The translations under genes were made by a program, and so were the position numbers. A stretch of DNA of 64,000 nucleotides from Oribacterium sp. NK2B42 (lineage in GTDB: Bacteria > Bacillota > Clostridia > Lachnospirales > Lachnospiraceae): NCBI RefSeq assembly GCF_000424445.1, contig NZ_AUJX01000004.1, positions 1 to 64,000 of the forward strand, given 5' to 3'. Below, in pieces: positions 1,178 through 26,468 of the stretch (position 1 is its first letter; each line of letters starts with the position of its first letter). The notes beneath the pieces were generated by a model. The model did no database searches, had not been told where the DNA came from, and saw only the letters and a list, made by a program, of their open reading frames with translations.

Positions 1178-2653
1178 TCAATGCAGTTCCCGTCTCATCC
1201 AGCTGATGATTTCCTGCTCCAATTTCAGGTTGTTTTCCAACATATAGCTTATAACATCTGTGTATTTGCCATAAGACAAGAGATTTTTCGCCTTTGTCCT
1301 GTCGTTTTCTTCAAGGGGCTTTCCGTAATCAGCATAGGTTTTTAGTTCATCAATTCCCATCCAAAGTGGGCTAATGTCTATGCCGGTTCCTCTTCGCAGG
1401 CTTTCGAGAATGTAAAAGCCGTCGGGATCGATATCTCCGAAATGGAGCCACTGCTTTTCGCATTCGTGATCCTGATATATTTTCTGAGGTTGCTTCTCCG
1501 TTTCTCGTTCCGCATTTTTTTTATGCAGTTGCTTCTCGGCTTCCTGATCATTGTTTATCTTATGAGAATTCTTATACCTCTCATCTTCCTGATCTTTGTA
1601 TATCTTCTGTAAAAGCTTCTGTTTTACCGTGTTATGGTATCCACTTAGATAAATATAGAAACTATCATTTCTCGCAGGCAATCTGTTGAAGGATGTGAGA
1701 TTTTCAACTGTTATAATCCTTTCACCATAGATTTTAATCCTTTTAAGCTTTCGTAGTGTCTCCGATGAAAGGGCCAGGGGGTGCTCACAACTCAAATGTA
1801 GTTTCTCGCCGTATCCTTCAAATCGCAGAGTTTCCGAAAGCCCCTGAGCATGCTCACAGTTTAGATGCATCTTTTCTCCGGAACCTTCAAACCACAGATC
1901 TCCATCGCCCTTCAGATAAACATAGGAGGGATTTGCAAAGACCTGATATTCTTCAAGGATTATTTGCTGTTTCTCCCGTTCGTCCTCTATCTCATCCCAG
2001 GTTTCATTCTCCCATCTTTTGTCATATCGGATCAAAAACCTGCACACCCGGGTGCGGTATTGCTTTTCAAATGTCTTGCTGTCAGACAGCACCATGATGG
2101 AAAGCTCCCGCTCCAGGATATCCTTTTCATTTGTCATTACAGCTTCTACCAGCTTAAGTACTTTGTCCGCTGTCTCCCGGTCAATGGAGCTGTGCCCGTC
2201 CAGAGATGCCTTTTTCCCGGATTCCAGGCGTTCCAGCTGCTCAGTCACAAAGATATCAATTATCGGGTGTGCGCCGAGCCAGCCTCTGTAGAATTCCTTT
2301 TCTGCCTCCCTGAGCTGATCTTTGCTTTCACTCCCGAGGACACTGTAGTAAAGAGGCATCGACTCGACATTGGCCTTGATGGACTGTATCTCTCCAGTCT
2401 TCCATGTGAGGGAAACAAGCTGCACCTCACCTGCCCCCGGAAAATGTTCCAGCTCTTCCATTTCCTGGTGAAAATTCCGTAGTTCCCCCGGGTCTGCAAA
2501 ATCGCTGTAGTACTCGCGGAAGACAGCATCCGGGCGGATAACAAATGACTGATTGACTTTATTTTCCCCGGAATAGGTTTTACTTCTTTCATATTTGTTC
2601 AGAAGAAGGCTCAGCACCTTCCTCTGATACTTCGTTAATTCTTTTTTCTGCAT
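1178..2653 (-). CDS. jetD: Wadjet defence protein JetD (DUF3322/DUF2220, topoisomerase-VI-like nuclease subunit)
   Basis: This 491-residue protein is the last gene of the Wadjet operon. The Toprim-like core of DUF2220 is visible near residue 410 (WLHFGDIDPDGFYILESL), with the acidic DxD expected to bind metal; the N-terminal half corresponds to DUF3322. In studied Wadjet systems JetD is the nuclease that cuts small circular DNA after the JetABC SMC-like motor has extruded it. The start chosen is the ATG at 2653, 7 bases after AAGG; a GTG lies one codon earlier. Two tandem-repeat tracts sit inside it: residues about 255-300 (FEGxGEKxHLxCEH, two copies) and residues about 350-400 (four 13-residue units ending KIYQDHECEKQ). 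The second tract lies just before the Toprim motif. The acidic motif is intact, so activity is plausible. Confidence 0.9.
   Translation of the reverse strand: MQKKELTKYQRKVLSLLLNKYERSKTYSGENKVNQSFVIRPDAVFREYYSDFADPGELRNFHQEMEELEHFPGAGEVQLVSLTWKTGEIQSIKANVESMPLYYSVLGSESKDQLREAEKEFYRGWLGAHPIIDIFVTEQLERLESGKKASLDGHSSIDRETADKVLKLVEAVMTNEKDILERELSIMVLSDSKTFEKQYRTRVCRFLIRYDKRWENETWDEIEDEREKQQIILEEYQVFANPSYVYLKGDGDLWFEGSGEKMHLNCEHAQGLSETLRFEGYGEKLHLSCEHPLALSSETLRKLKRIKIYGERIITVENLTSFNRLPARNDSFYIYLSGYHNTVKQKLLQKIYKDQEDERYKNSHKINNDQEAEKQLHKKNAERETEKQPQKIYQDHECEKQWLHFGDIDPDGFYILESLRRGTGIDISPLWMGIDELKTYADYGKPLEENDRTKAKNLLSYGKYTDVISYMLENNLKLEQEIISWMRRELH
1451..1609 (-). repeat. 39-bp degenerate tandem repeat inside jetD (four units)
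   Basis: Units begin at about 1451, 1490, 1529 and 1568. They encode KIYxDxExEKQ-type 13-mers, and the last unit (1568-1609) is slightly longer. The unit nearest the Toprim motif is probably the ancestral segment. All lengths are multiples of three. Confidence 0.75.
1752..1892 (-). repeat. Two-copy in-frame repeat (72 and 69 bp) inside jetD
   Basis: Copies at 1752-1823 and 1824-1892 encode FEGYGEKLHLSCEH and FEGSGEKMHLNCEH, each followed by a LSETLR-like tail. The copies differ at scattered positions, so the duplication is not very recent, and the frame has been kept. Confidence 0.75.
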
Positions 2654-2661
2654 CACGATAC

Positions 2662-2815
2662 CTTCACAAGTCCCTCAGCCACATGTGTATATCTTCCCGA
2701 CTCCACCAGACTCACCGCGGAATAAGATTTAAGTGCCATTTCTCACGACACCTTCACAAGCCCTTCAACCACATGAGTATACCGTCCCGACTCCACCAGG
2801 CTCACTGTGGAATGA
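2662..2815 (-). repeat. 87-bp offset duplication of the jetC 3' end
   Basis: The block 2749-2815 (end of jetC) is repeated at 2662-2727, between jetC and jetD. The downstream copy still reads VSLVESGRYTHV then EGLVKVS and a stop in the jetC frame. That stop overlaps the jetD start (TGATG), which suggests the original jetC ended there. The offset is exactly 29 codons. Confidence 0.85.
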
Positions 2816-5800
2816 ATATATGAGCCAATGCTTGCGATCTTCTCCGGCGGTGCCGCATAGATTATCTGAAAGTTATTTTCCTCAAAATACTGTACCATCT
2901 TCTCGATTCTTTCCTTTGATAATGCCGAGAATGCCTCGTCGATAAAGCCAAGCCGCATGCAGCATTTGTCCTTTGGATAACACTGGAGAAGTGAAGCTGC
3001 CAGAATGATAAAGTACGGTGTCTGCTTTTCTCCGTTGCTGGCAGAGCCCTGCTTCTGTGACAGCTCCGCCTGCATTTCCTCCTTGCCCTGGCGGCTGGTT
3101 ATCTCCATATCATAGGTGAAATAATTTCTGTAATCCGTGTACTCGGACTCATCTTCACTGTCAAGGATCAGGTCCATAAATTCCTTGATATCCCGTTCCA
3201 TTTCCTCATCGTTTCGAAGGGAATTCATGTAAACCTCCGGGTTATCCATGTAGGCATTGAGCTTTTCGGAAATCCGGAAAAATACCTGTCTGTCGGGCTT
3301 TTCCTTCATGATAAATTTATAGGTATCATTTCCGAATGGAATCTTCCTGAGTTCCCGGTTAATGTTTTCCATTTCCTCTTTTGCGGCGGTAATCTTTTCC
3401 CTGATCTCCGCCACGAAGTCATTCATGAAGGCGCTTTCCAGCTTGCCTTTCTGTTCCTGAAAGCTTTCCGAAGCTCTTTCGATCTGAACATTGGCAAGAT
3501 CCTGGTAAAGGCCGCGATAATACACGATAAATGCGGGACCTCTTCTGTTCATGTCTCCACCGGCGATACGGCAATAGGCTATCTGGATGTCCTCCATGTT
3601 TTTAACCAGAGTATTCTCAACTTCGTTTCTAAGCTCGTTAAGGCGCTTTTCTGTCACCACGATGGAATGTCCGTTTCTATCGCCGGACTTTTCGCGGTTT
3701 CTCTCCCTGAGCTTTTCATACTCGGACAGCATTTCTTTCTTCAGCTCAAAATGCTCACGCTCCAGCTCCAGGTACAGGTTTTCCGCAACCTTCAGCTTAC
3801 CTGAAAGCTCGAACTGGTTCTTTTCCTCGTGTGCAGTTTCATTTTTATTGATGCTAATGTCCTGAAGCGCCTTTTGTCTGATGCCGTCTGCAGTCTCAAC
3901 CGCTTTCTGCGCAGCCTCCTGCTCCTGAAGGATCGCCAGGAAGTCAGGGTTGTTCTTAAGGTCGCTGAGGGACTTTTCAAGCTCACGCTTTTTCTCTGAC
4001 TGTTCAGCATGGAGCAAAGGTGCATTCATCTTATAGTGGTCTTCGTTGAGATCAAGCTTTTCCAGTTCGTCCTTATGCTCCCTCAGGACTTTAAGCTCCT
4101 CTTCCTTATGCCCAAGCTCTTCCCGGAGCTGTTCCTCCTGTTTCTTCGCTTCCTTCAGCTGCAGTTTTACAGCGTCCTGGCCGAAATATATCTTTGTTTT
4201 TCGGATGTCCATGTTGGAAAATGCATAGCTCTTCGCAAGACCGCCGTCCTCCATGAGACCACCTTTAGGATAGTTATGAAGCTCTTCGAGATCTTTACAG
4301 AGATGTATTCCGTTCAAAAGGTAGTTCACATACCTTCTGGCGTAAACATTAGGCACAGTGAGAATACCGGCAGCGGACCCCTCCTGCGCCTCCGTATCCG
4401 GGAGCTTGTCGGTAATCACAACTGTGGCGGAGTAGTTTTTGGAATTGTGCAGTACCTCCATGGCACGGTGACAGTATTTCCCATCCACTATGATGAAAAA
4501 GCGTTTTCTGCCCAGGAAGGTTTCTATTGCTCTGCGCCATTTTGGCTCCTTCACTTCTGAAACAAGCTCGGCAAGGAAACGGACATCTGTATCGATTCCG
4601 TCTTCTGCAAATGCTTTCTTAATTTCTGCTTTGGCAGCCTCCGCTTCCTTTGGATAAGTCATCACATTGTTTTCGAGCTGACGAATGGTTTTCGCAAGTT
4701 CTATCTTCTCGTCCTGTAATGCTTTGACCGCGTCTCCGACATGAACAAGGTTCTCTGAAATCTTTTCTTTTTCTGCATTAAGCTGTGTTTTCAGCGAGAA
4801 AAAAACAGAAAGCTTCCGGTCCGCTGCAATCTTGGGGTCGGAAAATGCTGTTCCCACCCTTCTGTCTTCCTCATTAAGCTCCGGCAATGCCCAGTTAAGA
4901 AGTGCCACGATCTGCTCCTCAAGCTTTGCGAGGGTTGCTATATCCTTCTCGAGATCACTGAGATCCCGGCTCATATTCTCAATCTGATGCTCCAGTCCGC
5001 TAAGCTGTGACTGCATGTTCTGGAAGTCCTGGTTACTCCTGCAGATGGTGAGACGCTCGTTGGCTGCATTGTAATCACGGAGGGCGATTTCATACTTGGC
5101 TTCCAGATCCTTCAGCTGCTTCCTTAAAAAATCAGCTCTCCGGATACTCTCCTCCTGCTGCTCCCTTATATCCACGGTATCCTGATATCTGAACATCATC
5201 CTGCGGACATTATACCTGCGAAGCTTCTCTTCATATTCCTGCACAACCTTTTCAAGCTCTTCCAGCTTCTTTTTACCCTGGCTCAAACGCTCATAAAGGG
5301 CTTTTATCTCTTCGAATTTCTGCCTCTGCTCCTTGAGATTGGCAAGTGACTGAATGTTTCCGGCGTCAAAAACGCAGTCCTGGATGAACTTGTCAATATT
5401 GTTCTCCGGGTTGAATGCCATCATTTTCAGAATCTTCTGCCTGTAGGTATGTACATCAGAGCGGAGTCCCAGGGTTCGAAGCAATTGGCTTGTTCCTTCT
5501 TCTTTTCTTTTAAACTCGGAAGCCTTTATTAGCTTTCCGTGGACGCGGAGTTCGTTTTTGGGAGTCACATAAAGATGTCCGTCCTTAACCTCGCAGAAAT
5601 TCACATCCTCAATCCGGGCATCTCTTATGACAAACCAGTTCTGGAGCTTGCATTCCGAAGGATTGGGGGATTCCATCACCACACCGCAAAGCTGATACTG
5701 TTCGTCCACAGGGGACCAGAACTCCATGACTATATAGCTTATGACCGCATCCTTTCCGCGAAGATAACGGGTGTCTCCCTTACTTCTTGTGTCACCGCGC

Positions 5801-6027
5801 ACATATGCAAGAACGCTTCTGTCACGATCCTTTGCTGCAGTATTGAACTTGGTATTGCCGGTCAGGAGAAATGTCATGGCATCAAGGATTGTGGATTTAC
5901 CTGAACCATTGATACCGGTAATGAGAGTTGAGCCCTCAAGTCTTATGATCTCCCTCTGAAATCTTGACCAGTTTATGAGTAAAAGCCTGGAGGCGGTTTT
6001 TCTGTTTAGTAACATTTGTTCTTCCAT
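2743..6027 (-). CDS. jetC: Wadjet defence protein JetC (SMC/MukB-like ATPase)
   Basis: This is a 1094-residue SMC-like motor. The Walker A motif GINGSGKST is near residue 40. Long coiled coils flank a hinge-like globular part in the middle (around residues 480-640), and the C-terminus carries the signature SNGEKQ and the Walker B LGFIDEAF. In Wadjet systems JetC forms a MukBEF-like complex with JetA (kleisin, MukF-like) and JetB (MukE-like) that extrudes plasmid DNA and hands it to JetD. It starts at the ATG directly after the jetB stop, with GAGGAG upstream, so translation of the two is coupled. Its 3' end has been duplicated downstream. All ATPase motifs are intact. Confidence 0.93.
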   Translation of the reverse strand: MEEQMLLNRKTASRLLLINWSRFQREIIRLEGSTLITGINGSGKSTILDAMTFLLTGNTKFNTAAKDRDRSVLAYVRGDTRSKGDTRYLRGKDAVISYIVMEFWSPVDEQYQLCGVVMESPNPSECKLQNWFVIRDARIEDVNFCEVKDGHLYVTPKNELRVHGKLIKASEFKRKEEGTSQLLRTLGLRSDVHTYRQKILKMMAFNPENNIDKFIQDCVFDAGNIQSLANLKEQRQKFEEIKALYERLSQGKKKLEELEKVVQEYEEKLRRYNVRRMMFRYQDTVDIREQQEESIRRADFLRKQLKDLEAKYEIALRDYNAANERLTICRSNQDFQNMQSQLSGLEHQIENMSRDLSDLEKDIATLAKLEEQIVALLNWALPELNEEDRRVGTAFSDPKIAADRKLSVFFSLKTQLNAEKEKISENLVHVGDAVKALQDEKIELAKTIRQLENNVMTYPKEAEAAKAEIKKAFAEDGIDTDVRFLAELVSEVKEPKWRRAIETFLGRKRFFIIVDGKYCHRAMEVLHNSKNYSATVVITDKLPDTEAQEGSAAGILTVPNVYARRYVNYLLNGIHLCKDLEELHNYPKGGLMEDGGLAKSYAFSNMDIRKTKIYFGQDAVKLQLKEAKKQEEQLREELGHKEEELKVLREHKDELEKLDLNEDHYKMNAPLLHAEQSEKKRELEKSLSDLKNNPDFLAILQEQEAAQKAVETADGIRQKALQDISINKNETAHEEKNQFELSGKLKVAENLYLELEREHFELKKEMLSEYEKLRERNREKSGDRNGHSIVVTEKRLNELRNEVENTLVKNMEDIQIAYCRIAGGDMNRRGPAFIVYYRGLYQDLANVQIERASESFQEQKGKLESAFMNDFVAEIREKITAAKEEMENINRELRKIPFGNDTYKFIMKEKPDRQVFFRISEKLNAYMDNPEVYMNSLRNDEEMERDIKEFMDLILDSEDESEYTDYRNYFTYDMEITSRQGKEEMQAELSQKQGSASNGEKQTPYFIILAASLLQCYPKDKCCMRLGFIDEAFSALSKERIEKMVQYFEENNFQIIYAAPPEKIASIGSYIHSTVSLVESGRYTHVVEGLVKVS

Positions 6028-6029
6028 CC

Positions 6030-6686
6030 CTAAATCTCCTCATCCATATCTTCATCGTCCTCGCTGTTGAATCCTGATTTCCTCTGAAGCATTCTGTTCG
6101 TTGCATTTTTCAGGAACATCTCAAACTCGTCATCGTTCATGCAGTAAAGAAGCGACGGGAACAAAGCTATACGGCAATCCGGGTCTCCGACTTTTCCCAC
6201 AACATCCAGAAGGTTATATTTCTTAAAAAGCTTGAGACTATCGCTCATGGTAGTCTTATCGATGACATCCTTCACTCCGAATTTCTCCAGAGTGAAATTC
6301 AGATCCATTACCGATATAAATATCTTTCGTGACATGGTTCCCGAATGAATCTTGTCGTCATATATGGTCCAGATGGCACAAAGCAGCAGGCTGTCTACCT
6401 TTCTGAGCATCAGCCTGTTGGAGCCGACGCGCCCAAACTCGCCGCCTTCATCCAGGTTCCTAAGCATTATCACGCCGTTTTCTCTGTCGACAATGAGATC
6501 AAAACCGATATAGCCAAGGTACAGGCTCAGAGCCTCTCTTTGATTGGATACAAAATAATAGAGCTTTTTGCTGTCCTCGTCCTTATCCCGGACGATAAAG
6601 GTTGTCCTTAAAAGCCTCCTGGCAGCTCTCTGAAACTGATCCTTCTCACCGCCGGTAAACTCCTCCCAATATTCATGCATTTCCAT
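6030..6686 (-). CDS. jetB: Wadjet defence protein JetB (MukE-like subunit)
   Basis: This 218-residue protein lies between jetA and jetC. Its N-terminal pattern (FTGGEKDQFQRAARRLL, then a FIVRDKD strand) and the winged-helix-like middle (MSDSLKLFKKYNLLDVVG) match JetB-type proteins, and position and size agree. JetB is expected to bridge the JetA kleisin and DNA in the extrusion complex. The C-terminus is strongly acidic (EDDEDMDEE). The sequence looks more like the JetB of type II/III Wadjet (DUF6063-like) than DUF4194 of type I, but I cannot settle the subtype by eye. Only two bases separate it from jetC. Confidence 0.8.
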   Translation of the reverse strand: MEMHEYWEEFTGGEKDQFQRAARRLLRTTFIVRDKDEDSKKLYYFVSNQREALSLYLGYIGFDLIVDRENGVIMLRNLDEGGEFGRVGSNRLMLRKVDSLLLCAIWTIYDDKIHSGTMSRKIFISVMDLNFTLEKFGVKDVIDKTTMSDSLKLFKKYNLLDVVGKVGDPDCRIALFPSLLYCMNDDEFEMFLKNATNRMLQRKSGFNSEDDEDMDEEI

Positions 6687-6749
6687 TGCAGTTTTCCCTT
6701 CTACTTCCTTAATACGTGTTTTCAGCCCTTCATATCCGATAAACGGATG

Positions 6750-6839
6750 CCGGTCTGACTAGTTCACTTCTTTATTACTCATCTATAGGCACATGTTCTT
6801 CACCGCTCATCACTGACATGTGGATGCCTATCTGACCGG
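6750..6839 (-). repeat. Nested inverted repeats between jetA and jetB
   Basis: The outer arms CCGGTC (6750-6755) and GACCGG (6834-6839) enclose ATAGGC-ACATGT (6785-6796) and its partner ACATGT...GCCTAT (6816-6831). In jetA-jetB read-through mRNA this would fold into a branched hairpin. There is no U-tract on the minus strand, so it is not a normal terminator. Confidence 0.6.
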
Positions 6840-6847
6840 ACTAAACA

Positions 6848-8458
6848 TTAGCCCTTTTTCTTTATTGTGAACTTCCTGAGAACAAATTCGCCCTTGTCTT
6901 CATACTCCGGTTCCTGATCCATGATAATGTCATAGCCGTTCTGATCGCCATAGGCCGCTGCCGAAACTGCTGCCAGAACGTCTCTCCTGCTGCTGAGAGG
7001 CAGCTCATCACTTGTCATGGTTGTGCGTCCCTGAAGCTGCTGCTCGATATACTGCTTCATAAGTTCCCTGGCGTATGGATTGTAGGCTTCCCGCTCCTGC
7101 AGCATTCTGGCTCTTTCCCTGTCTTCTTCCGTCATTTCCTCATACAGGTCAACTGTGGCTTTTCGTATGGGCTGGGCCTTTCGAGGGTATCTCAGGGACT
7201 GGAGATCCATGAATTCCTGGGAATCCATGGCGAACAACAAGGTCATCTCTTCGGGGATTTCTTCCTTCATGCCGAGAGACTCCATCTCAGTTGCAATATA
7301 TTTCAAAACCTGCTCGACTTTTCCCCTGGCATCTGCTTCTTTATTCTGTATAAATCGTGCTCTTCCTATCGCTATGTCAAGGTAAAGGGTTATCTTATTT
7401 TTGATGTCTCTCAGGATCTCGTCATAATCCTGATTCAGAAAACGGTTTGTGTTGTCTATCAGGTCAATGACAAATTCTTCCGCTTCACCTTCATTGGACA
7501 GCTCCTCCTCATCAAAGCATCCTATTACAAGCAGCTCGAACAGCTCTTTATTGGTTCTTAGCTGCCTGAGCTTCTTATTGATGCTCTGCCTGTAAAGGTG
7601 AATGTTTGACTGCTTTGTAAGGCGGGCATATTCATGAATGAAATTTCCGGTGGAATATTCCAGAAGATTATTCGTCAGGCTTTCCAATGTTTCCTCATGC
7701 ACCATCTGCTCGATGTATTTCTTCATATAGGTAGAAAGTCGTTTTAAAGATTTCGCCAGGGCTTTGGCATTTCTGTAAACCGATTTCAACGCAAAGGCAT
7801 AGGGATTGTCCTGCCACTGTTCCTTATTATTAAGGGTATTATAGATATCAAAGATATAGCTTGCAAACTCAGCCTTTTCCGGACGTTTCAGGTTCATCAG
7901 GAATTCTGCAAGTAAGACGCCCTGTTCGGTCATGATTATCTGGCGTTCGTAGGTTACATCATCTATTTCTTCTTCAAGCCAGCCTATATTTGAGTCCAGG
8001 AACTTGTAAATGATTCGGCTTGCGATGTCGTTGGGGGACTGGTCATTTGGCTCCTGCTGCCTGGTTTTACCACGGCCTTTGGGTGTTGAGTTTAAAGTCT
8101 CACTTTGAGCCCTAAGCATTTCGGATGTTGTGTTTAAGGTTTTACTTTGAGCTTTAAACATTTCACTTCTGTTCTGTCTGGTGGTTTTCTCACGCCTTGA
8201 AGCATTATTCTCTTTAGGTTCAGCATCTTCGCTGTCGTCCAGTGCTTTTATATGGTTCTCCGCAATATAGATCGCTATGGCATCACGGATACGGTCTCTG
8301 GGTATACGGTAGGAAACTTCCCGTTCATATTCACGGAAGATAAGTTCCAGGCAGTCAGCGTAGATTTGATTATTACTGTTGCTGGCCAACAGATTAAAGA
8401 AGCCGTTAGGCAATTGATTGAATAGATTGTTAACTGTAGTCATTTTGCGAAACCTCAT
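6848..8458 (-). CDS. jetA: Wadjet defence protein JetA (MukF/kleisin-like subunit)
   Basis: This is the first gene of the operon: 536 residues, mostly helical, with an N-terminal winged-helix-like region (MTTVNNLFNQLPNGFFNLLASNS) and a C-terminal domain ending EFVLRKFTIKKKG. JetA is the kleisin-like subunit that closes the JetC ring. The start chosen is the ATG at 8458, eight bases after AGGAG; an in-frame ATG 18 bases upstream lacks this spacing. Residues about 97-124 are a two-copy 14-residue tandem repeat (EMFKAQSKTLNTTS / EMLRAQSETLNSTP) in a probable linker. The gene diverges from vapB, so the promoter should lie in 8459-8557. Subtype is uncertain. Confidence 0.8.
   Translation of the reverse strand: MRFRKMTTVNNLFNQLPNGFFNLLASNSNNQIYADCLELIFREYEREVSYRIPRDRIRDAIAIYIAENHIKALDDSEDAEPKENNASRREKTTRQNRSEMFKAQSKTLNTTSEMLRAQSETLNSTPKGRGKTRQQEPNDQSPNDIASRIIYKFLDSNIGWLEEEIDDVTYERQIIMTEQGVLLAEFLMNLKRPEKAEFASYIFDIYNTLNNKEQWQDNPYAFALKSVYRNAKALAKSLKRLSTYMKKYIEQMVHEETLESLTNNLLEYSTGNFIHEYARLTKQSNIHLYRQSINKKLRQLRTNKELFELLVIGCFDEEELSNEGEAEEFVIDLIDNTNRFLNQDYDEILRDIKNKITLYLDIAIGRARFIQNKEADARGKVEQVLKYIATEMESLGMKEEIPEEMTLLFAMDSQEFMDLQSLRYPRKAQPIRKATVDLYEEMTEEDRERARMLQEREAYNPYARELMKQYIEQQLQGRTTMTSDELPLSSRRDVLAAVSAAAYGDQNGYDIIMDQEPEYEDKGEFVLRKFTIKKKG
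8088..8171 (-). repeat. 42-bp two-copy tandem repeat inside jetA
   Basis: Units are 8088-8129 and 8130-8171, each 14 codons, sharing the core CTTTGAGC and flanks. The frame is kept and the copies have diverged at about a third of positions. Confidence 0.75.
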
Positions 8459-8557
8459 TTTTACTGCTCCTATCATAACAATTTTCTAACGGGTTATGAA
8501 TAGTAAAGCAGATTCGGGTTGCATTTTTTTGCACATAGATATGTGTATTCTCGTGTA

Positions 8558-9516: not shown

Positions 9517-10335
9517 TCACATCAACGTATTCATCATCATAATAGCTTGTTCTTCCGGTGTGGGTTCACGGTCAGGAAGGGATGACATCTTCTGCTTTGC
9601 CTCCGATAGAAGTGCCTTAACTTTTTCTACTTCTCTTTCGTCGCAGGCATTTTCTTCAAGTCCTGCTTCCACCTCCTGAAGATCCTGTTCAAGTAAGGCG
9701 ATGATTGCCTGCATGTCACCTCTGGTAGCAGCTGCTGCAATCTGTCTCCTTCGCTTTTGTTCGTTGACAGACACGGATTTACCGGTGGATTCCGTTGTGA
9801 CTTCTCCATCATCATCGATTTTTATCTTCATGCTTTGGAATCCTACTTCCCCCTGTTTTTCTTCAAGAGATTCATCTGCTGCCTTTAAATTTTTAAACAG
9901 AGACTGACGTTTGTCCGGATCCGTGAGACAATCTCTCAGATATTTTGATGGGATTTCCGCCATGCCCTGTTTTACAATGTTAAAGTTCTCATAAAGGTAT
10001 TTTGAAAGATCATCAACTGTATCAAATATCAGATCTTTAACTGTATCCGATGTCAGATCACCGACCGTGTCGAATGACGGATCTTTGTCCATATAAAATA
10101 TCGAATCGGATTTCGCATCATCTGCTTCCAGGTTTGCTTTTAAAGCTGTCCTTCCCTGTTCAGAAATCTCCAAGGTATCTTTCTGGTTTAGCAATACTTC
10201 AACTACTGACTCTCCGGATCTGTCTCCTATTTCTGTATCTCGTCTGATTCCGGAATTCTTTCCTCGTTTTATTATCTTTGGATTTACATTATTGCCGACA
10301 TATTTTCCATACGTATCGTTAATCTCTACGACCAT
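9517..10335 (-). CDS. Hydrophilic protein of kinase trio 1 (DUF6033-like N-terminus)
   Basis: This 272-residue protein has no signal peptide or membrane segment. Its start MVVEINDTYGKYVGNNV matches the start of the trio 2 protein (MAMDINGVYGNYAGAY), so the two share a family-defining N-terminal motif; function is unknown. Residues about 86-110 are three 8-residue repeats (DTVGDLTS, DTVKDLIF, DTVDDLSK). The C-terminal half is helical and charged, ending EEQAIMMMNTLM. It starts behind a strong GAAGGAGG site. A pair of LytTR-type direct repeats (10395-10426) sits just upstream of a TATTAT -10 box. It is probably the target, or the output, of the LytTR regulator encoded upstream of it. Confidence 0.65.
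   Translation of the reverse strand: MVVEINDTYGKYVGNNVNPKIIKRGKNSGIRRDTEIGDRSGESVVEVLLNQKDTLEISEQGRTALKANLEADDAKSDSIFYMDKDPSFDTVGDLTSDTVKDLIFDTVDDLSKYLYENFNIVKQGMAEIPSKYLRDCLTDPDKRQSLFKNLKAADESLEEKQGEVGFQSMKIKIDDDGEVTTESTGKSVSVNEQKRRRQIAAAATRGDMQAIIALLEQDLQEVEAGLEENACDEREVEKVKALLSEAKQKMSSLPDREPTPEEQAIMMMNTLM
10007..10078 (-). repeat. 24-bp three-copy tandem repeat inside the trio 1 protein gene
   Basis: Units 10007-10030, 10031-10054 and 10055-10078 share AGATC and TGTaTC cores and encode (F/S)DTVxDL 8-mers. Confidence 0.75.
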
Positions 10336-10394
10336 TTCAAACCTCCTTCATCTAATCTTTACTTCGGAGGTCAAAAACCAAATATAATACAATT

Positions 10395-10426
10395 GCAGTG
10401 AACACCACTTTTCTTGCAGTCAATTA
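10395..10426 (-). promoter_or_regulatory. LytTR-type direct-repeat operator in front of the trio 1 protein gene
   Basis: On the plus strand GCAGTGAACAC (10395) and GCAGTCAATTA (10416) start 21 bases apart with TTTTCT between them, and a TATTAT -10 box lies next to them on the minus strand. One-turn spacing of 21-22 bp is the usual geometry of LytTR (AgrA/ComE-type) sites. The same repeat occurs at 15031 and 17659. Confidence 0.65.
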
Positions 10427-10539
10427 CCTGATTTATTGTTTCCGGCCACGACTTAGGAAAATACTTCCGCCAATCCTGCATCCTATATTATTGAGGGAAT
10501 GACCGTCGTTCCAACTTCGAGCATCTCAGTCAACGGTCA

Positions 10540-12174
10540 CTACCTTGCGCACCTGGTATTCATCATAACCGTCAAAATAAACCTATGGCTTTCTCTTTCG
10601 CTTTTTATCTCAATGTCTATATCCCCCATATATTTTCTTGCGCATTTTTGGATATTTGACATACCAATCCCATGCAAATGTTTATCTGCTTTACTCGTCA
10701 CGGGAAGTCCGGTATCCTTATCAAAGGTCACCTGCCCGTCAAATACATTTTCAATCTCAATAAAGTACAGGGTTCCTTTCATATAGGACTTAAGAGAAAT
10801 TTCTCTTGCGCCCTCCACCTTCCGGCAAGCTTCAAAGGCATTGTCCAAGGCATTATCCAGAATGACTGCTATGTCGTAAATGTCTATACGTCCGGAGTTT
10901 GGAGCAACAAAACCTGCCTCTATTTGCCCGGAACCAGGCGTCACATAATCCGTCTTTATGTTCCCGAGGTCTGGTGCTACAAAATCTACTTCGAAGGTTA
11001 TTCCGCTCCTCTTCGCTTCCTGCATCCTTTGATATAGAATGATGTCCGTGATGGGATTTCCACTCTTTGATGAAAAATCCAGTTTATTTACTGAATCCTC
11101 AAGCTCGCCGATATACCCGTCAATCTCCGACATATCATTTCCAGTGTTCTTAACATACTGCATGATATTGTTCAGGTGATTCCTCATATCATGCTTCAGT
11201 CCCCGCAGATCAGAATATATATTTTCAACATCCTCGATTTCCCTGTGAAGCTGCTCCACCTGTTTTTCAAGGATGGCCTGCTTCCGTCTCTCCTCATTAC
11301 GTTCTATTAGGTACTGAAACAGCATCATGGCGGCAATGATAGAGCCAAGAAGCAGAAAACAAATGACTATGATCCATATGAGAACCTCCGGAACCTTGTC
11401 GTAAATCAGCAGAGATAATCTTTCATTAATTTTCAGTATTATTACCCGCAAAGTCATGGACACCCCAAGTCCGGTAATGCAGGGGAGTATCAAAAATACA
11501 CTCTCCCTAAGGCTTGGCTCATAGCCTTTGTGGATATATTTCCCGCTCAGGACTTTCAGATATGTAAACATTAGCCCCACATATATGGCTACGGAGACCA
11601 GGCTTTGAACGAAAAGATAGATGTTCAGAAACATATCCGCTTTCTCCATAGTTAAGTTTTCGGATTGGAGAACCATGCTCTCAAACATGCTCCAAGTGGC
11701 GTGGGAGATCAGGTAATAACCGACACTTCCGATATTTCTGATCAACTCTTTTCCGGCGGTAAAGCTTATGGCGGCAAACATCTGCCTTTTGAAATCTTGC
11801 TCAAAGAAGATGAGCTCAAGTATGCCCAGTAAAGCAAGATCCAGCATAGTTCGGAGCATGACTGTTTGGGTTTCTGCCAATTTATACAGTACAGCTTCTG
11901 ACGAAAGATATATGATTATCCAGAGAATAAGCATTAGCCTCCCGGAGTGTTTCGGTCTAAGAAGTCCCGAGCCCTTTAGTTCGTCATCTTCCGATGACGG
12001 AAGCTTTATGTTTTTGCTTATTACCTGTTTCATACCTGGAGCAGCCCGGAGCTCTCGGAAACGACAGTAAGCATTGTATCTCGGTTTCAAAAATGCAGCT
12101 CCGTATAGACTGCTGAAAATCGCATCTGCCACGTATATCGGAAGGGTTAGGGTGACAGTCAGAATATCAAACAT
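10540..12174 (-). CDS. GHKL histidine kinase of trio 1 (AgrC/ComD-like)
   Basis: This is a 544-residue membrane kinase. About six hydrophobic segments span residues 75-290, then a coiled coil, the phospho-acceptor box LRGLKHDMRNHLNN (near residue 330) and a GHKL ATPase domain with N-box DNALDNAFEACRK and G-box HLHGIGMSN. Kinases of this class pair with LytTR regulators and often sense peptides, but no pheromone precursor or AgrB-like protease is visible here. Its start overlaps the stop of the regulator by 8 bases. Just before the N-box there are three 12-residue units (DFVAPDLGNIKT, DYVTPGSGQIEA, GFVAPNSGRIDI), whereas the sister kinases at 15175 and 20429 have one. Catalytic motifs are intact. 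Confidence 0.88.
   Translation of the reverse strand: MFDILTVTLTLPIYVADAIFSSLYGAAFLKPRYNAYCRFRELRAAPGMKQVISKNIKLPSSEDDELKGSGLLRPKHSGRLMLILWIIIYLSSEAVLYKLAETQTVMLRTMLDLALLGILELIFFEQDFKRQMFAAISFTAGKELIRNIGSVGYYLISHATWSMFESMVLQSENLTMEKADMFLNIYLFVQSLVSVAIYVGLMFTYLKVLSGKYIHKGYEPSLRESVFLILPCITGLGVSMTLRVIILKINERLSLLIYDKVPEVLIWIIVICFLLLGSIIAAMMLFQYLIERNEERRKQAILEKQVEQLHREIEDVENIYSDLRGLKHDMRNHLNNIMQYVKNTGNDMSEIDGYIGELEDSVNKLDFSSKSGNPITDIILYQRMQEAKRSGITFEVDFVAPDLGNIKTDYVTPGSGQIEAGFVAPNSGRIDIYDIAVILDNALDNAFEACRKVEGAREISLKSYMKGTLYFIEIENVFDGQVTFDKDTGLPVTSKADKHLHGIGMSNIQKCARKYMGDIDIEIKSERESHRFILTVMMNTRCAR
10885..10992 (-). repeat. 36-bp three-copy tandem repeat inside the trio 1 kinase
   Basis: Units 10885-10920, 10921-10956 and 10957-10992 have exactly equal length and encode 12-mers of the form (D/G)(F/Y)VxPxxGxI. 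They lie immediately before the ATPase N-box strand. Confidence 0.85.
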
Positions 12175-12988
12175 TCACGATACCTCCGTTTTTGGCGTAG
12201 CGAAGATACGCTTTGACGAAATCCGTATACTTCTTTTCGGCAAGAATAATGCTTTCGCCGTTAAGCACCTGAATGTTGTTCATGGAATAGGCCGACACCT
12301 TTTCAAAGTTTACAAGATAGCACCTGTGGCACCTAAAGAAAGTATCACCCAATTCCTTTTCAAGATCGTACATTCTAGCATAGGTTTCTGCGAGTCCACT
12401 GTCTGTATGGAAAACCACCTTTCTGTCATTGCTTTCGATATACTGAATTTCGGAAAACAGGATTTTTTTCCTATTTTCCCCTTCTTTAATGATCACATAT
12501 TTATTTCTTTGTTCGTCAGAATACCGAGACTCTTTAAGCGCCCGTTGAAACACCTCCGAAAACTTGTTTTCCTTAATCGGCTTCACAAGATAATGAAAGG
12601 CATTTACATCGAAGGCTTCTTCCATATACTCTCTGTAGGCTGTAACGAATATAATTATGCTTTGGTTCCCATAGTTTGACTGTCTTGTGTGGATACAGTT
12701 CCCTGAATCTGCATGTCCTTCGCGGATACTTTTTCCCGAACCCCCCTGACTCTCTCGAATACTCCTTTCATGATCTTCCTGTCTCTCACGGATACGCTTC
12801 GCAAGCTCTATCCCGGATACATCTCCCATTTCAATATCAAGAAAATAAATATTGAAAAAATCTCCACAGGAAAGCAGTTCCTCGCTTCCCTTAAAGAAAC
12901 TGATTTTCGCATCTGCATATTGTTTCCTTATCAGATCAGCTAATTGGTTTCTGATATTTATGTCGTCATCACATACAGCTATATTCAT
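12167..12988 (-). CDS. LytTR response regulator of trio 1
   Basis: This 273-residue regulator has a receiver domain (MNIAVCDDDINIRNQLADL, phospho-acceptor in YFLDIEMGD, conserved lysine in YLVKPI) and a LytTR DNA-binding domain (YIESNDRKVVFH ... FFRCHRCYLVNFEKV). The start is the ATG at 12988 behind AAAGGA; the frame stays open upstream into the remains of a RelE/ParE-like toxin, but I take that as a separate, damaged gene. The receiver has about 40 extra residues between helix 3 and strand 4, made of four 11-residue units (IRERQEDHERS, IRESQGGSGKS and so on). This may disturb signalling, although the key residues are kept. It overlaps the kinase gene by 8 bases. Confidence 0.88.
   Translation of the reverse strand: MNIAVCDDDINIRNQLADLIRKQYADAKISFFKGSEELLSCGDFFNIYFLDIEMGDVSGIELAKRIRERQEDHERSIRESQGGSGKSIREGHADSGNCIHTRQSNYGNQSIIIFVTAYREYMEEAFDVNAFHYLVKPIKENKFSEVFQRALKESRYSDEQRNKYVIIKEGENRKKILFSEIQYIESNDRKVVFHTDSGLAETYARMYDLEKELGDTFFRCHRCYLVNFEKVSAYSMNNIQVLNGESIILAEKKYTDFVKAYLRYAKNGGIVNV
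12678..12809 (-). repeat. 33-bp four-copy tandem repeat inside the trio 1 receiver domain
   Basis: Units start at 12678, 12711, 12744 and 12777, each 33 bp. They encode degenerate 11-mers beginning IRE or IHT. Confidence 0.85.
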
Positions 12989-13333
12989 TTCCGAATTCCT
13001 TTCATAATAGAATGAACTATTATTATATAGCCATAATGTGTCCTGCTTTTCATTATTATGTAGTGAATTACGGGATTTTTGCTGTGAAATATTCGTTTGA
13101 ACAGAAAAGCCGCAGCTATCTGCTTGTACAGATAACTGCGGTTCTTTTAGCTTCTCGCTATCGGGTTCTTTAATGCTTCCCGCTACATTCTTCAAGCTTT
13201 TCTTAGTATCCCTAAAATCTGCCAGTACACTCTTAACTGCCTGGGGATTCCTCTTTACATCACGAAGATGTGCAACATATTTCCTTAAATCTTCTTCTGC
13301 ATCAGGAGTTACAATTATTTTGTACTGTTTCAC
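12989..13333 (-). pseudogene. Truncated RelE/ParE-family toxin, open into the response regulator
   Basis: The first 65 residues (MKQYKIIVTPDAEEDLRKYV ... LKNVAGSIKEPDSEKLKE) read as the N-terminal two thirds of a RelE/ParE-type toxin. After that the usual C-terminal strands (typically a HRYFMLYR-like strand) are replaced by unrelated sequence that includes a terminator hairpin at 13104-13142. The frame has no stop before the downstream regulator, so a toxin-regulator fusion is formally possible. The separate ribosome binding site of the regulator and the terminator argue against that. The ATG overlaps the antitoxin stop by 4 bases. Confidence 0.7.
13104..13142 (-). terminator. Rho-independent terminator inside the damaged toxin gene
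   Basis: On the minus strand: CCGCAGTTATCTG, loop TACAAG, CAGATAGCTGCGG, then CTTTTCTGTT. A similar hairpin lies at 22824-22858. Both stand between a TA or Abi relic and a LytTR regulator. Confidence 0.7.
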
Positions 13334-14044: not shown

Positions 14045-14848
14045 TTATAACTTCTTGTCAAAATTAAAACCAACCATATCATTCTTCAAGCCTTTTGCTG
14101 TTTCTCCGGAAAGAATATCCTTCGTGATATCATACATTTCAGATCCTTTGTACTTATCTCCCAGAATCTTCTTATTGGCACTATCTATCTTCTCTTTCAG
14201 AGCCGCCTTTTCTTCCCGTGCCGCTTTTAACTTTTCTTCCAAAGCCTCTTTTTGCTCTGCTTTTTCTTTTTTCTTTTCCGCAACCTTTTCTTCAGTTTTT
14301 TTCTTTTCTGCCTTTTGCTGCCGGAGTTTAGTTCCAAATTCATTCGGTGATGTTATCTTTGAACGTCTGTCATCATGCTTACTTATTGACCAGCAGCTAA
14401 TGCCTCCGTCCTTATCTATGGCCCATCCCCGGGCAACAAGCGTAGCACCACTTCCCTCTATTCTTTGTCGTGCTTGTTCATCCAGTGCCTGCATATTAGC
14501 AATTTCTTTTTCATATTGCTTTTCAAGCTCCGGATCATTCGCCATCTTCTTTAAAAATTCGGGAGAGATTGCCACATTGGTTGTTTTGTTGGAACCATAT
14601 CTCATTCCAGGCTGAAAATTCGCCGCGGCAAAAGAGTAGCCATCATATTTTTTACTGAGATATTTCAATTCATCCGCCGCTGTTTTCCTTATGTTGTTAG
14701 AACCATTTTCATTCTCAACGGATGATATCTGACCGGTTGACTTCCCGGATTTATTTACAACTTTCGAATTACTTGTTCGATTTGTATTCTTTTGATTGGT
14801 ATATGCTCCTGCGTAGTTACCATATACACCATTTATATCCATTGCCAT
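14045..14848 (-). CDS. Hydrophilic protein of kinase trio 2 (DUF6033-like)
   Basis: This 267-residue protein has no signal peptide or membrane span. The N-terminal motif MAMDINGVYGNYAGAY is shared with the trio 1 protein. A central globular part (residues about 70-160: FLKKMANDPELEKQYEKEI ... ARGWAIDKDGGISCWSISKH) is followed by a lysine/glutamate-rich coiled coil (residues 175-225). It resembles DUF6033-type proteins of gut clostridia as I recall them; no function is known. The start is the ATG after AAAGGAGGG, not an upstream in-frame ATG. A LytTR-type operator (15031-15062) lies upstream, so it is probably controlled by the regulator of its own trio. Confidence 0.7.
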   Translation of the reverse strand: MAMDINGVYGNYAGAYTNQKNTNRTSNSKVVNKSGKSTGQISSVENENGSNNIRKTAADELKYLSKKYDGYSFAAANFQPGMRYGSNKTTNVAISPEFLKKMANDPELEKQYEKEIANMQALDEQARQRIEGSGATLVARGWAIDKDGGISCWSISKHDDRRSKITSPNEFGTKLRQQKAEKKKTEEKVAEKKKEKAEQKEALEEKLKAAREEKAALKEKIDSANKKILGDKYKGSEMYDITKDILSGETAKGLKNDMVGFNFDKKL

Positions 14849-17711: not shown

Positions 17712-17747
17712 ATAAAAAACCCCGGAAACACATCAGTTTCCGGGGGT
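17712..17747 (-). terminator. Rho-independent terminator next to the distal rpsI-end repeat
   Basis: CCCCGGAAAC ACATCA GTTTCCGGGG with a run of A (T on the minus strand) at 17712-17719. It stands in the same position relative to the repeat as the rpsI terminator does at 23376-23411. Confidence 0.85.
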
Positions 17748-17791
17748 TGTGAATTCTTTTCGATTCTTCGAAGATTATCTCTTTGAGAACT
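17747..17791 (-). repeat. Distal copy of the rpsI 3' end (candidate attachment site)
   Basis: These 45 bases are identical to 23410-23454, which hold the last 17 bases of rpsI and the 28 bases after it. The coding part here has no gene attached. It is best explained as the far end of an element that inserted at rpsI. Confidence 0.75.
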
Positions 17792-23411: not shown

Positions 23412-23435
23412 GTGAATTCTTTTCGATTCTTCGAA

Positions 23436-23457
23436 GATTATCTCTTTGAGAACTGAG
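23436..23457 (-). repeat. rpsI 3' end core, proximal copy of the candidate attachment site
   Basis: These 22 bases span the last codons and stop of rpsI and recur identically at 19583-19604; 19 of them recur at 17773-17791. Ribosomal gene 3' ends, rpsI among them, are known insertion sites of integrative elements in Firmicutes. Confidence 0.65.
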
Positions 23458-23830: not shown

Positions 23831-23844
23831 CTTGATATCCTCCC

Positions 23845-24279
23845 TTAGAATGTAAGCTCAACAGGCTTCTGTGCCTGGTGCTTGTGATCTGCGCCAGCGT
23901 ATACGAAAAGCTTCTTATACATCTGTCTGCCTAATGGTCCGTGAGGAAGCATACCCTTTACTGCATACTCGATAACCTTCTCAGGCTTCTTAGCCTTGAG
24001 ATCACGAAGAGTTGTCTCACGCATTGAACCAACATACTTTGAATGTGTGCGATAAATCTTCTGCTCAAGCTTCTTACCTGTTACGGTGATCTTGTCAGCA
24101 TTAACGATGATTACGTAATCTCCGCAATCAAGGAACGGTGTGTAAGTTGGCTTGTTCTTTCCGCGAAGAACCTTAGCAACCTCTGATGCAAGACGTCCAA
24201 GTGTCTTACCCTCTGCATCTACTACATACCACTTTCTGTCCTGTGCAATAGTAGAAGCTGTAGCTACGTATGAATTCAT
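23845..24279 (-). CDS. rplM: 50S ribosomal protein L13
   Basis: This 144-residue protein of normal length has the L13 core [20 protein letters not shown] and [21 protein letters not shown]13 is an early assembly protein of the large subunit. It is the first gene of the rplM-rpsI operon, with a GGAGG site and an unusually long leader (about 240 bases) behind a perfect consensus promoter. An L13-binding leader is known in related bacteria, so autoregulation is plausible. Confidence 0.98.
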
Positions 24280-24553
24280 AACAACCTCCTGTTATAAGGC
24301 TACTTACTCTGGTCTCTGTCCAAAACAGAACTTCTGTCGGCCGCCGCATCGGGTTAAATGCGAGGTTTCTTCTTAATTAAGAAGAACTTCTTTCGGCGCA
24401 AGTGGTCCACTCTGAGACTGATTTCAGTATTTAATGTAGCCCGGGCCGATGCTTTCGACCCTGCTGTGAATAGTTAACTGCCCATCTTCGAGCGCAATAT
24501 GCCTGTAAACGAACAGCAATACGTATTATATTTGCAATCCCTCAGGCTGTCAA
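24280..24553 (-). promoter_or_regulatory. Consensus promoter and long leader of rplM-rpsI
   Basis: TTGACA (24548-24553), exactly 17 bases, TATAAT (24525-24530): a perfect sigma-A promoter. The transcript should begin near 24518, leaving about 240 bases before rplM with several GC-rich hairpins. Rfam lists an L13 leader in Firmicutes; I cannot confirm a match by eye. Confidence 0.85.
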
Positions 24554-24589
24554 TACGGTTGACAGCATTTCGAAATATAAAATTAGTAT

Positions 24590-24628
24590 AAAAATAACAG
24601 TCCCCCTGGCCCACCGACTAAACTGTTA
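24590..24628 (-). terminator. Terminator of the HAD hydrolase transcript
   Basis: On the minus strand TAACAGT, a 20-base GC-rich loop, ACTGTTA, then TTTTTAT. It separates the hydrolase gene from the rplM promoter. Confidence 0.65.
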
Positions 24629-24643
24629 CGTATAAAATTGTTT

Positions 24644-25300
24644 TTAGTCCTTTTCCATAATTTCTATAATTTCTGCCAATGTCTCCGGCTCTTCATCCAG
24701 CAAATCCCTGACATCATCAAGCTCGCTCATGTCTTTGATTCCGAAAACCTTGCAGCCTGCGTCATATCCGGCATGGATACCGTTGGGGGCATCTTCCACT
24801 ACGATGCACTCCTCCGGCTTAAGTCCGATCCTCTCCGCGCACTGAAGATAGATGTCCGGTGCAGGCTTTCCGTGGGTTATCATTTCCCCCGAACAGATGT
24901 AATCAAACTTTTCGGTGTAACCGGTTTTATCAAGATAATGCATAACCACCGGCTTTAGTGAAGATGAGCCCAATGCTATCCTGTAGCCCTTCTGCATTAG
25001 CCAGTCAAAAAGCTCGTCCAGCCCGGGCTTCTTGGGGATATCATTATCGATAAAATACTGATCGATATATTTCTTTCTGTAGCCTCTTTCCTCCCAGTAG
25101 TCAAAGTCGGGGTTAACTTCATTGAACATCTTTCCGATGTTTTCCATGGAGGCTCCGCGCATCTTGTTGATCATCTCGTCGGTCATGGTATAGCCTCGCT
25201 CCTTCGATGCTACCTTCCAGAAATGGTGATAAACCTTTTCCGTGTCAAACATGGTGCCGTCCATGTCGAATATAAAACCCTTGATGTTGTTATATTTCAT
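24644..25300 (-). CDS. HAD-superfamily hydrolase (beta-phosphoglucomutase-like)
   Basis: This 218-residue protein has motif I FIFDMDGTMFDTE with the nucleophile and acid aspartates, a helical cap (residues 20-85), motif II GSSS, motif III lysine in HGKPAPDIY and motif IV VVEDAPNGIHAG. It belongs to the group that includes beta-phosphoglucomutases and small sugar-phosphate phosphatases; the substrate cannot be told from sequence. The start is the ATG at 25300 behind AGGAAGG, not the upstream frame start. It is inserted between truA and rplM, which are neighbours in most Firmicutes. Confidence 0.9.
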   Translation of the reverse strand: MKYNNIKGFIFDMDGTMFDTEKVYHHFWKVASKERGYTMTDEMINKMRGASMENIGKMFNEVNPDFDYWEERGYRKKYIDQYFIDNDIPKKPGLDELFDWLMQKGYRIALGSSSLKPVVMHYLDKTGYTEKFDYICSGEMITHGKPAPDIYLQCAERIGLKPEECIVVEDAPNGIHAGYDAGCKVFGIKDMSELDDVRDLLDEEPETLAEIIEIMEKD

Positions 25301-25349
25301 GACTTTTTCCTTCCTGAACAAATGTCAGCCTTTTCATGATTTAGCTTCA

Positions 25350-26468
25350 TCAATACCTGAGTTCCACCAGACATAATCCCTTTGCCGGCACCGTCGGGCC
25401 TGCTTTGGTCCTGTCTTTTTCTTCAAGGATGTTCATGATGTCCTCAGGTTCTCTCTTGCCGTTTCCCACCTGCAGCAGAGTTCCGACAATAATACGAATC
25501 ATATGATACAGAAATCCGTTTCCTCTGATCCTGAAGGTGATAAGACTCGCATCTTCTTCCCGGACCTTTCTCGAAACCTTGGATAAGTTCACGTCAATCC
25601 GAACCTGTCTCGAGACGTTGGGTAACTCTACAGCTTCACAGATCTTTTCTTGGTTGTTGACCAAATCCGGGTTTTCAAATTCCCCTGAGCAGTTGGCTGA
25701 ATCTACAGCTTCACAGATCTGTTCCTGGTTGCTGAACAAATCCGAGGTCTCAAATTCCCCTGAGCTGTTGGCTGAATCTACAGCTTCCGGACTCTTTCTT
25801 CCCCTATCAGAAAAGATTTCAATGCTGTAAATCTCTCTTACCGCATCTCCCCCGTGTTCAAAGACCTGACTGTCCGGATTCACAAAGCTTGTAAAATCAT
25901 GAACTCCGCAGAGATACTCCGCAGCCTGCTGCATTTTTTCAATGTCTAAGGCATAGGTGAAGTTATAGGCATAAAGCCTTCCCATCGGCGAAGGGATAGG
26001 AGAATTGTCCACTTTGTATTCGTATACCTTTTCATGGGGCTCGAATCTCGGATTAAACTCCGCCGGCACTTCCTCTGCTTTAACCACTCTTATGTCTTCC
26101 GGCAGAAAACTGTTGATAGCAGAGGGGAAGTTCTCCGTAGGGATGGTGGAGTCTGTGTCAAATACGGCAACATTACCCATAGCATGCACTCCGCTGTCCG
26201 TGCGGCTTGCGCCTATAAGCTGAATGCTGTCGTCCTCCGGTGAATTTCCTTCCCCCTGGGAAAGCATACCGGAGGCAGAAGAAGGGTCTTTACCTGAGCT
26301 CCGCCTCAGCAAATTCCCTATTCCCAATGTGAGCATCCCCTGAATAGTAGGCTTATCACCTTCGGGCTTTTCCTTCGTAGGATTCTGGATCTGCCAGCCT
26401 TTGTAACCGGTCCCGTCATATGCGATTGTTAATTTGATACGTCGTTTCATGCTAAATTGAAAACTCAC
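25350..26468 (-). CDS. truA: tRNA pseudouridine(38-40) synthase TruA with expanded loops
   Basis: TruA converts uridines 38-40 of the tRNA anticodon arm to pseudouridine. The catalytic aspartate is seen in GASRTDSGVHAMG, and the family blocks IAYDGTGYKGWQ, YLCGVHDFTSF and FLYHMIRIIVGTLL are all present. The protein is 372 residues against the usual 245-270. The excess lies in two places: about 25 residues after the first helix (residues about 55-85), and about 75 residues (about 225-300) made of a 25-residue tandem repeat plus a 13-residue pair (VSRQVR / VSRKVR). Both are surface loops in the family. The start may be GTG 26468 or ATG 26450; neither has ideal spacing. Synteny with ecfT supports the call. 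Confidence 0.95.
   Translation of the reverse strand: MSFQFSMKRRIKLTIAYDGTGYKGWQIQNPTKEKPEGDKPTIQGMLTLGIGNLLRRSSGKDPSSASGMLSQGEGNSPEDDSIQLIGASRTDSGVHAMGNVAVFDTDSTIPTENFPSAINSFLPEDIRVVKAEEVPAEFNPRFEPHEKVYEYKVDNSPIPSPMGRLYAYNFTYALDIEKMQQAAEYLCGVHDFTSFVNPDSQVFEHGGDAVREIYSIEIFSDRGRKSPEAVDSANSSGEFETSDLFSNQEQICEAVDSANCSGEFENPDLVNNQEKICEAVELPNVSRQVRIDVNLSKVSRKVREEDASLITFRIRGNGFLYHMIRIIVGTLLQVGNGKREPEDIMNILEEKDRTKAGPTVPAKGLCLVELRY
25627..25791 (-). repeat. 75-bp tandem repeat inside truA
   Basis: TCTACAGC recurs at 25627, 25702 and 25777, exactly 75 bases apart. Two full units and a partial third encode EAVDSANxSGEFExxDL-type 25-mers. A separate 39-bp pair lies at about 25549-25626. Confidence 0.9.
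26242..26339 (-). repeat. 69-bp offset repeat in the 5' part of truA
   Basis: The block at 26242-26270 is similar to 26311-26339, an offset of 23 codons, and accounts for the extra residues between the first helix and the catalytic motif (GMLTLGIGN and GMLSQGEGN). Confidence 0.65.

Follow-up and report, generated by a model that had tools for sequence, protein, structure and literature searches.

In-Frame Tandem Repeats in Protein Loops of Wadjet, Signaling and TruA Genes of Oribacterium sp. NK2B42

Introduction

Why do several unrelated genes in one bacterial region carry short tandem repeats, each with a unit of its own, inside their coding sequences? This question is raised by the first 64 kb of contig C3 from the genome of Oribacterium sp. 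NK2B42 (G000, 3.79 Mb), and this whole stretch is called the window below. Ten tandem repeats were listed there in an original prediction, in the Wadjet genes jetA, jetC and jetD, in a small hydrophilic protein, in a histidine kinase and its response regulator, and in truA. The tandem repeats are real, and the process that they reflect in these genes is real and partly recent. Tandem duplication that keeps the frame and is tolerated in loops is already known, and ordinary duplication of this kind, with gains exceeding losses in the lineage of G000 and its sister G012, is the probable explanation. A lineage-level insertion bias is possible. In the genome collection, the named genomes nearest to G000 are Oribacterium; G004, G005, G006, G011, G013 and similar labels designate the other genomes compared. 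No published account of this case was found in the literature searched, which was a partial collection.

Tandem Repeats in the Window

All ten repeats were looked for at the DNA level, with Tandem Repeats Finder (score at least 40) and an ungapped period scan, and with a protein-level scan in which a composition-corrected z of 4 was the pass mark. The DNA-level tools detect the strong repeats, and the remainder were detected by the protein-level scan. The following features were recognized:

1451–1594, minus strand: jetD, block of 13-residue (39 bp) repeats, residues 355–402, between two pieces of the JetD_C match (domain and protein scans)
1763–1897, minus strand: jetD, two copies of a 23-residue (69 bp) unit, residues 254–298, common to G012 (protein scan, alignment)
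2653–2813, minus strand: 3′ end of jetC and start of jetD, 71-nt repeat spaced 90 bp (DNA comparison)
8078–8164, minus strand: jetA, two copies of a 14-residue (42 bp) unit in a loop insert (Tandem Repeats Finder, protein scan)
10007–10060, minus strand: open reading frame (ORF) 9517–10335, 8-residue (24 bp) unit (Tandem Repeats Finder, orthologues)
10867–10992, minus strand: GHKL histidine kinase 10540–12174, three copies of a 12-residue (36 bp) unit (protein scan, orthologues)
12665–12799, minus strand: LytTR response regulator 12167–13333, four copies of an 11-residue (33 bp) unit (protein scan, orthologues)
25612–25787, minus strand: truA loop 2, two copies and a partial third of a 25-residue (75 bp) unit (Tandem Repeats Finder, protein scan, model)
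25560–25676, minus strand: truA, weak 13-residue (39 bp) repeat at the C-terminal end of loop 2 (protein scan)
26220–26300, minus strand: truA loop 1 insert, residues about 57–83 (alignment, model); the 69 bp unit claimed here is marginal

Tandem Repeats Finder recovered the claimed units of truA (75 bp, 25627–25787), jetA (42 bp, 8084–8164) and ORF 9517–10335 (24 bp), and found in addition a 24-bp row at 14207–14252 in a DUF6033 gene and other rows with 10–21 bp units. The period scan added spacings of 45 bp (1534–1609) and 69 bp (1782–1898) in jetD, and the 90 bp spacing at 2653–2813. At a score of at least 14 it gave six matches in the real window and 0.15 per shuffle among 40 window shuffles; the shuffles gave 0.025 matches each at 15.5 or more, and none at 18 or more. 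In the protein-level scan, units of 23 and 13 residues were seen in jetD, 14 in jetA, 8 in ORF 9517–10335, 12 in the kinase, 11 in the regulator and 25 in truA, where units of 13 and 23 residues were weak. JetD, JetA, the kinase, the regulator and TruA passed the z of 4. The product of ORF 9517–10335 remained below it, and its repeat rests on the DNA and on orthologues. No protein past 26.5 kb reached a z of 4; the original prediction had noted that none could be seen at 40–64 kb.

The claimed units of jetA, the hydrophilic protein, the kinase and the regulator were thus all found. For jetD the 39 bp unit held, while the second unit, given as about 72 bp, measures 69 bp; the repeat at the jetC/jetD border is present, but with a spacing of 90 bp and not 87 bp. 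Among the three truA units, the 75 bp unit is clear, the 39 bp unit is weak and the 69 bp unit is marginal (shuffle p 0.02). An assembly artefact was judged unlikely, because the copies are diverged and other genomes have other copy numbers.

Loop Positions in TruA and the Wadjet Proteins

The housekeeping enzyme TruA is affected, as predicted, by the 25-residue repeat in loop 2, which lies between the strands at residues 210–222 and 308–317. TruA is 372 residues long in G000 and 342 in G012. Among 73 TruA sequences from outside the genus, which are part of the best 80 of 185, 68 are 244–281 residues long and the other five are extended at the C-terminus. The family-wide truA search, which matched 118 of 120 genomes, yielded no more than open-frame lengths, and insert sizes were not taken from it. 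Both inserts are located between conserved strands in the alignment and in the predicted model. The mean predicted local distance difference test score (pLDDT) of the model is 79, with 200 of 372 residues at 90 or above, and residues 68–77 and 237–287 are below 50, a low confidence of the kind expected for disorder. The loop 1 insert is seen only in G000 and G012 among 30 aligned TruAs. A few TruAs from outside the genus also have additional residues in the second loop in the alignment, and this loop is therefore a permissive site. The period in this loop is 25 residues in G000 and 13 in G012.

By Pfam-type domain matches, the Wadjet operon comprises JetA, a DUF4194/MksE-like protein, an SMC-like JetC and JetD. 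Residues 259–282 and 357–395 of JetD lack an equivalent in 75% or more of 18 JetDs of the family, and the JetD of G012 has a repeat-like insert of 33 residues at a place where G000 has none. The loop insert of JetA is absent from two aligned JetAs of G014, and the corresponding loop in G012 is of similar length and unrelated sequence. Since the segments are missing from most family homologues in the alignments of TruA (n = 30), JetD (n = 18) and JetA (n = 2), an ordinary conserved repeat domain was rejected, in agreement with the original prediction. JetA is present in four of 17 genomes of the genus, G000 included (window 1178–8476), and G007 has a 40-residue piece identical to the C-terminus of JetD.

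Copy Number in the Kinase, the Regulator and ORF 9517

Orthologues differ by whole units in the kinase, the regulator and ORF 9517, as would be predicted from copy-number change between relatives. Six genomes of the genus contain a close form of the kinase; all six also contain ORF 9517, which in one genome is only partly present. The 12-residue unit of the kinase is present once in G012 and G004, twice in G013 and G005, and three times in G000. The 11-residue unit of the regulator is present once in G004, G005 and G013, twice in G012 and four times in G000. The 8-residue unit of ORF 9517 occurs in one copy in four other species, and the G000 protein is 24 residues longer. The two other GHKL kinases in the window show no such 12-residue unit in the protein scan.

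The match of the regulator to the receiver domain ends at profile position 70 of 111, which is the start of its repeat. The regulator frame (12167–13333) is open for about 116 codons upstream of a likely start near 12985, and this additional N-terminus is probably not translated. The kinase and the small hydrophilic protein (9517–12174) are about 82–94% identical to those of other species, against 62–78% for the TruAs of these species, and they were probably exchanged between species.

Reading Frame, Selection and Age of the Copies

The reading-frame filter proposed originally is supported by the periods in G000, which are divisible by three in 19 of 20 coding repeats versus 4 of 13 non-coding ones, repeats only partly inside genes being excluded. 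The filter prevails in all groups sampled and is not special to G000: all 34 coding periods of the family sample and all 8 of the sister are divisible by three, as are 12 of 14 from the other genomes of the genus and 16 of 19 from the truA-neighborhood set. One claimed repeat, that at the jetC/jetD border, is not an in-frame coding repeat: the copy at 2653–2723 duplicates the end of jetC past the jetC stop codon, so the two copies are not both in frame. In G012 it has three copies with a spacing of 92 bp, which is what a frame filter would allow where the frame does not matter.

The cores of these proteins are strongly constrained and the loops weakly. Between G000 and G012, nonsynonymous (dN) and synonymous (dS) divergence are 0.024 and 0.566 in the flank of truA and 0.335 and 0.738 in its loops; for jetA they are 0.014 and 0.414 in the flank and 0.64 and 1.05 in the loop. 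When copies are compared with each other, dN and dS are 0.107 and 0.151 for the 75-bp copies of truA (resting on eight substitutions), 0.202 and 0.794 for jetA, and 0.52 and 0.94 for the kinase; for the 69-bp unit of jetD dN is 0.27 and dS is beyond estimate. The corresponding dN/dS ratios, based on few substitutions, are 0.7 for the copies versus 0.04 for the flank in truA, 0.25 versus 0.03 in jetA and 0.55 versus 0.12 in the kinase. The low dS between the truA copies dates this duplication after the split from G012, and the duplications of jetA and jetD look older. G012 retains the jetD units of G000, as the later conservation of copies in biphasic repeat evolution would predict, but the dS of the jetD flank between the two genomes is only 0.16.

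Repeat Density Compared with Relatives

The original prediction supposed a lineage-specific, genome-wide process, with a coding-repeat density above that of other Lachnospiraceae. The net insertion excess of G000 and G012 described below agrees with the first part, but the density does not clearly bear out the second. The samples were not random, with contig C3 and the starts of other contigs for G000 and mostly contig 1 of each genome for the family. Per 100 kb of coding sequence, G000 has 4.2 tandem repeats (20 coding repeats, 549 kb sampled). The values are 3.3 for the family (34 repeats, 1128 kb; ratio 1.27, p 0.39), 2.5 for the rest of the genus (14 repeats, 656 kb; p 0.12) and 3.2 for the sister (8 repeats, 286 kb; p 0.56). 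The truA-neighborhood set, at 1.9 (19 repeats, 1153 kb; ratio 2.26, p 0.015), is the only one that differs from G000. Non-coding repeats amount to 17.1 per 100 kb in G000 versus 12.7 in the family.

At the protein level, repeats were flagged in 28 of 427 proteins of G000, 3 of 223 of the sister, 17 of 523 of the genus, 29 of 919 of the family and 34 of 1121 of the truA set. G000 is thus raised about twofold, and with the window removed (23/369) the nominal p is 0.018 against the family and 0.047 against the genus. In all groups scanned, many flagged proteins are known repeat domains, coiled coils or linkers, as judged by eye and by Pfam, which was run on all 28 proteins of G000, all 29 of the family and 12 of 17 of the genus, leaving out the truA set (34) and the sister (3).

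Repeats that break a domain, classified by hand and not blind, with the kinase and one GNAT protein excluded as borderline, are found in 5 of 427 proteins of G000, namely JetD, JetA, the regulator and TruA, all from the window, and HydF. The rest of the genus has at least 2 in 523 and the family 0 in 919. The two genus cases are a 23-residue unit inside an RsmF-type rRNA methyltransferase of G016 (L186:7584–9080) and a 10-residue unit within the GTPase domain of an EF-G-like protein of G001 (L192:10673–13459), both genomes being other species of the genus. The window therefore stands out as a cluster (4/58 versus 3/1811 elsewhere, p 3 × 10−5, post hoc and hand classified), and the remaining genome is not clearly different (1/369 versus 2/1442, p 0.5).

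Divergence age was rejected as the sole cause of the cluster: genes changed only in parts with a 4-fold divergence of 0.19–0.30, and none in parts at 0.04–0.06, but other parts at 0.18–0.37 show little repeat-derived change. The segment 31351–48140 of the window is 97.6–98.4% identical to G012, versus about 85–92% on either side, with a 4-fold divergence of 0.04–0.06, and looks like the result of recent recombination between the species.

Direction of Insertions between Species

Segments of at least six residues that are additional in one partner were counted in reciprocal-best pairs. Additional and lacking segments in G000 number 19:3 against G013 (81 pairs), 17:8 against G006 (34), 8:1 against G005 (17), 10:1 against G004 (15), 11:5 against G012 (170) and 1:0 against G011 (11). 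For G012 the counts are 19:3 against G013 (80 pairs), 17:5 against G006 (26), 4:3 against G005 (17), 4:1 against G004 (15) and 1:0 against G011 (11). The ten pairings among the other species are small (10–20 gene pairs each) and close to balance, ranging from 0:0 to 4:2. Inside the window, 6 of 8 additional segments of G000 relative to G012 are repeat-like.

Two enzymes on other contigs also vary in length. A thiamine pyrophosphate (TPP) enzyme has 734 residues in G013, 791 in G012 and 873 in G000, and a zinc-type dehydrogenase has 404, 444 and 424, respectively, the G000 values being open-frame lengths. The dehydrogenase of G012 contains a visibly repetitive 51-residue insert, and the insert in the TPP enzyme of G000, judged from 381 bases, is hydrophilic with no clear repeat. 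These two are not an unbiased sample, because they were chosen for G012 differing from G013.

Several observations weigh against a net gain that is general to the lineage. The pair counts have branches and genes in common. Outside the window the counts for G000 fall to 9:3 against G013 (p 0.15), 11:7 against G006 and 3:4 against G012, and the repeat-like share of its additional segments is 1 of 9, 1 of 11 and 0 of 3, respectively. Repeat-like additions are also seen in G013 (2 of 3 relative to G012) and G006 (1 of 8 relative to G000). The polarity of the 19 segments of G000 relative to G013 comprises 5 gains, 1 loss in G013, 5 ambiguous cases and 8 without an outgroup; for the 19 of G012 there are 5 gains, 3 losses in G013, 2 ambiguous cases and 9 without an outgroup. 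In a pooled family comparison with few usable proteins, insertions of at least 10 residues were found in none of 23 proteins of G000, whose TruA was not among the matches, probably because BLAST split it; there were 2 in 20 proteins of G012 (both in truA) and 9 in 591 of the truA set. Finally, the copies other than those of truA (jetA, kinase and jetD) are older and under some constraint.

Other Features of the Window

The kinase and regulator, a GHKL/LytTR pair which we take to be agr-like, lie beside the small hydrophilic protein, and the window includes more two-component genes as well as genes for L13, S9, HAD, TruA and CbiQ. A 77-bp segment at 17715–17791 has two further matches in contig C42 of the sister, and the matching contigs of the sister stop near 18.9–19.0 kb of the window, beside a 12-bp repeat in three copies. 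Arrays of a 63-bp unit at L113:3394–3697 and L130:6718–6950 come from the same genome, the second lying outside called genes, and perhaps represent a dispersed repeat family.

Discussion

The explanation that we consider probable can be described as follows. Ordinary slippage or exchange over short homologies would produce tandem duplications of 24–75 bp segments in exposed loops, and the only survivors would be events that keep the reading frame and land in permissive loops. Weakly constrained, the new copies would diverge around a conserved folded core, and older insertions would therefore no longer look like repeats but decay into plain inserts. In the lineage of G000 and its sister, gains would exceed losses, and the loops of several unrelated proteins would have grown as a consequence. 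A wider version, in which one Oribacterium clade is under persistent insertion bias as a lineage trait and in-frame duplications inflate disordered loops of core enzymes (TruA, HydF, the TPP enzyme and the dehydrogenase), defence and signaling proteins, is proposed only tentatively and is more doubtful than probable.

A local cluster by chance would mean that loop repeats occur at ordinary density across Lachnospiraceae and that the window happens to hold several. The coding density near the family level, the scarcity of domain-breaking repeats once the window is set aside and the few repeat-like insertions outside it all fit this explanation, but the concentration within the window, the insertion asymmetry of G000 and G012 and the length differences in the two enzymes on other contigs do not, and we regard it as rather unlikely. 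If altered replication or repair in the clade raised the rate of short tandem duplication, this heritable mutator state would account for the net insertion excess of both genomes and for the twofold protein-level excess of G000. However, the density of DNA repeats is not clearly raised in either coding or non-coding sequence, and the protein-level fraction of the sister is low, which makes such a state improbable.

Adaptive change, with longer loops altering partner or target specificity, for example between the kinase and the regulator or among Wadjet subunits, seems still less probable. Expansion of both the kinase and its regulator in G000 and the strong differences from the sister in the JetA loop and at one place in JetD point to it, whereas the similar growth of truA, the TPP enzyme and the dehydrogenase, the loop dN/dS below 1 in truA and jetA, and the disorder-like model confidence of the truA segments speak against it. 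A spreading in-frame element of the Rickettsia palindromic element type would explain why several unrelated genes are affected, but the unit differs from gene to gene; the 69-bp unit of jetD and the truA unit, the only two searched genome-wide, each occur at a single place in the whole genome, and eight repeat segments have no second place in 549 kb of G000. The tested units are not dispersed, as the original prediction held, and for them such an element was rejected; in general it is almost certainly not the cause.

Rickettsia palindromic elements are in-frame insertions in many unrelated genes, and differ from the present repeats, which have no single common sequence. Variable-number tandem repeats and contingency loci of bacteria likewise change by whole units between relatives, but the present repeats, with diverged copies in frame, do not switch genes on and off by frame. 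In Plasmodium, enzymes have low-complexity inserts in their loops, a similar lineage-wide swelling of housekeeping enzymes; these are simple asparagine or lysine runs, in contrast to the units of 8–25 residues in a bacterium of moderate G+C content. Persi, Wolf and Koonin (2016, PMC5120217) described protein repeats within genes whose copies diverge fast; these share with the present repeats a tandem origin inside the gene and divergence under relaxed selection. By comparison, the units here lie inside loops of enzymes and signaling proteins of one bacterial genus, in two to four diverged copies whose number varies between sister species.

The related species carry one, two, three or four copies, a natural series in which one can follow how protein repeats arise, are filtered by frame and decay in conserved proteins. 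Should the insertion bias prove genome-wide, these species would serve as a bacterial model for the question of why protein loops are allowed to grow in some lineages, and a clade-wide bias, if true, would be a bacterial counterpart of the loop swelling of some eukaryotic parasites.

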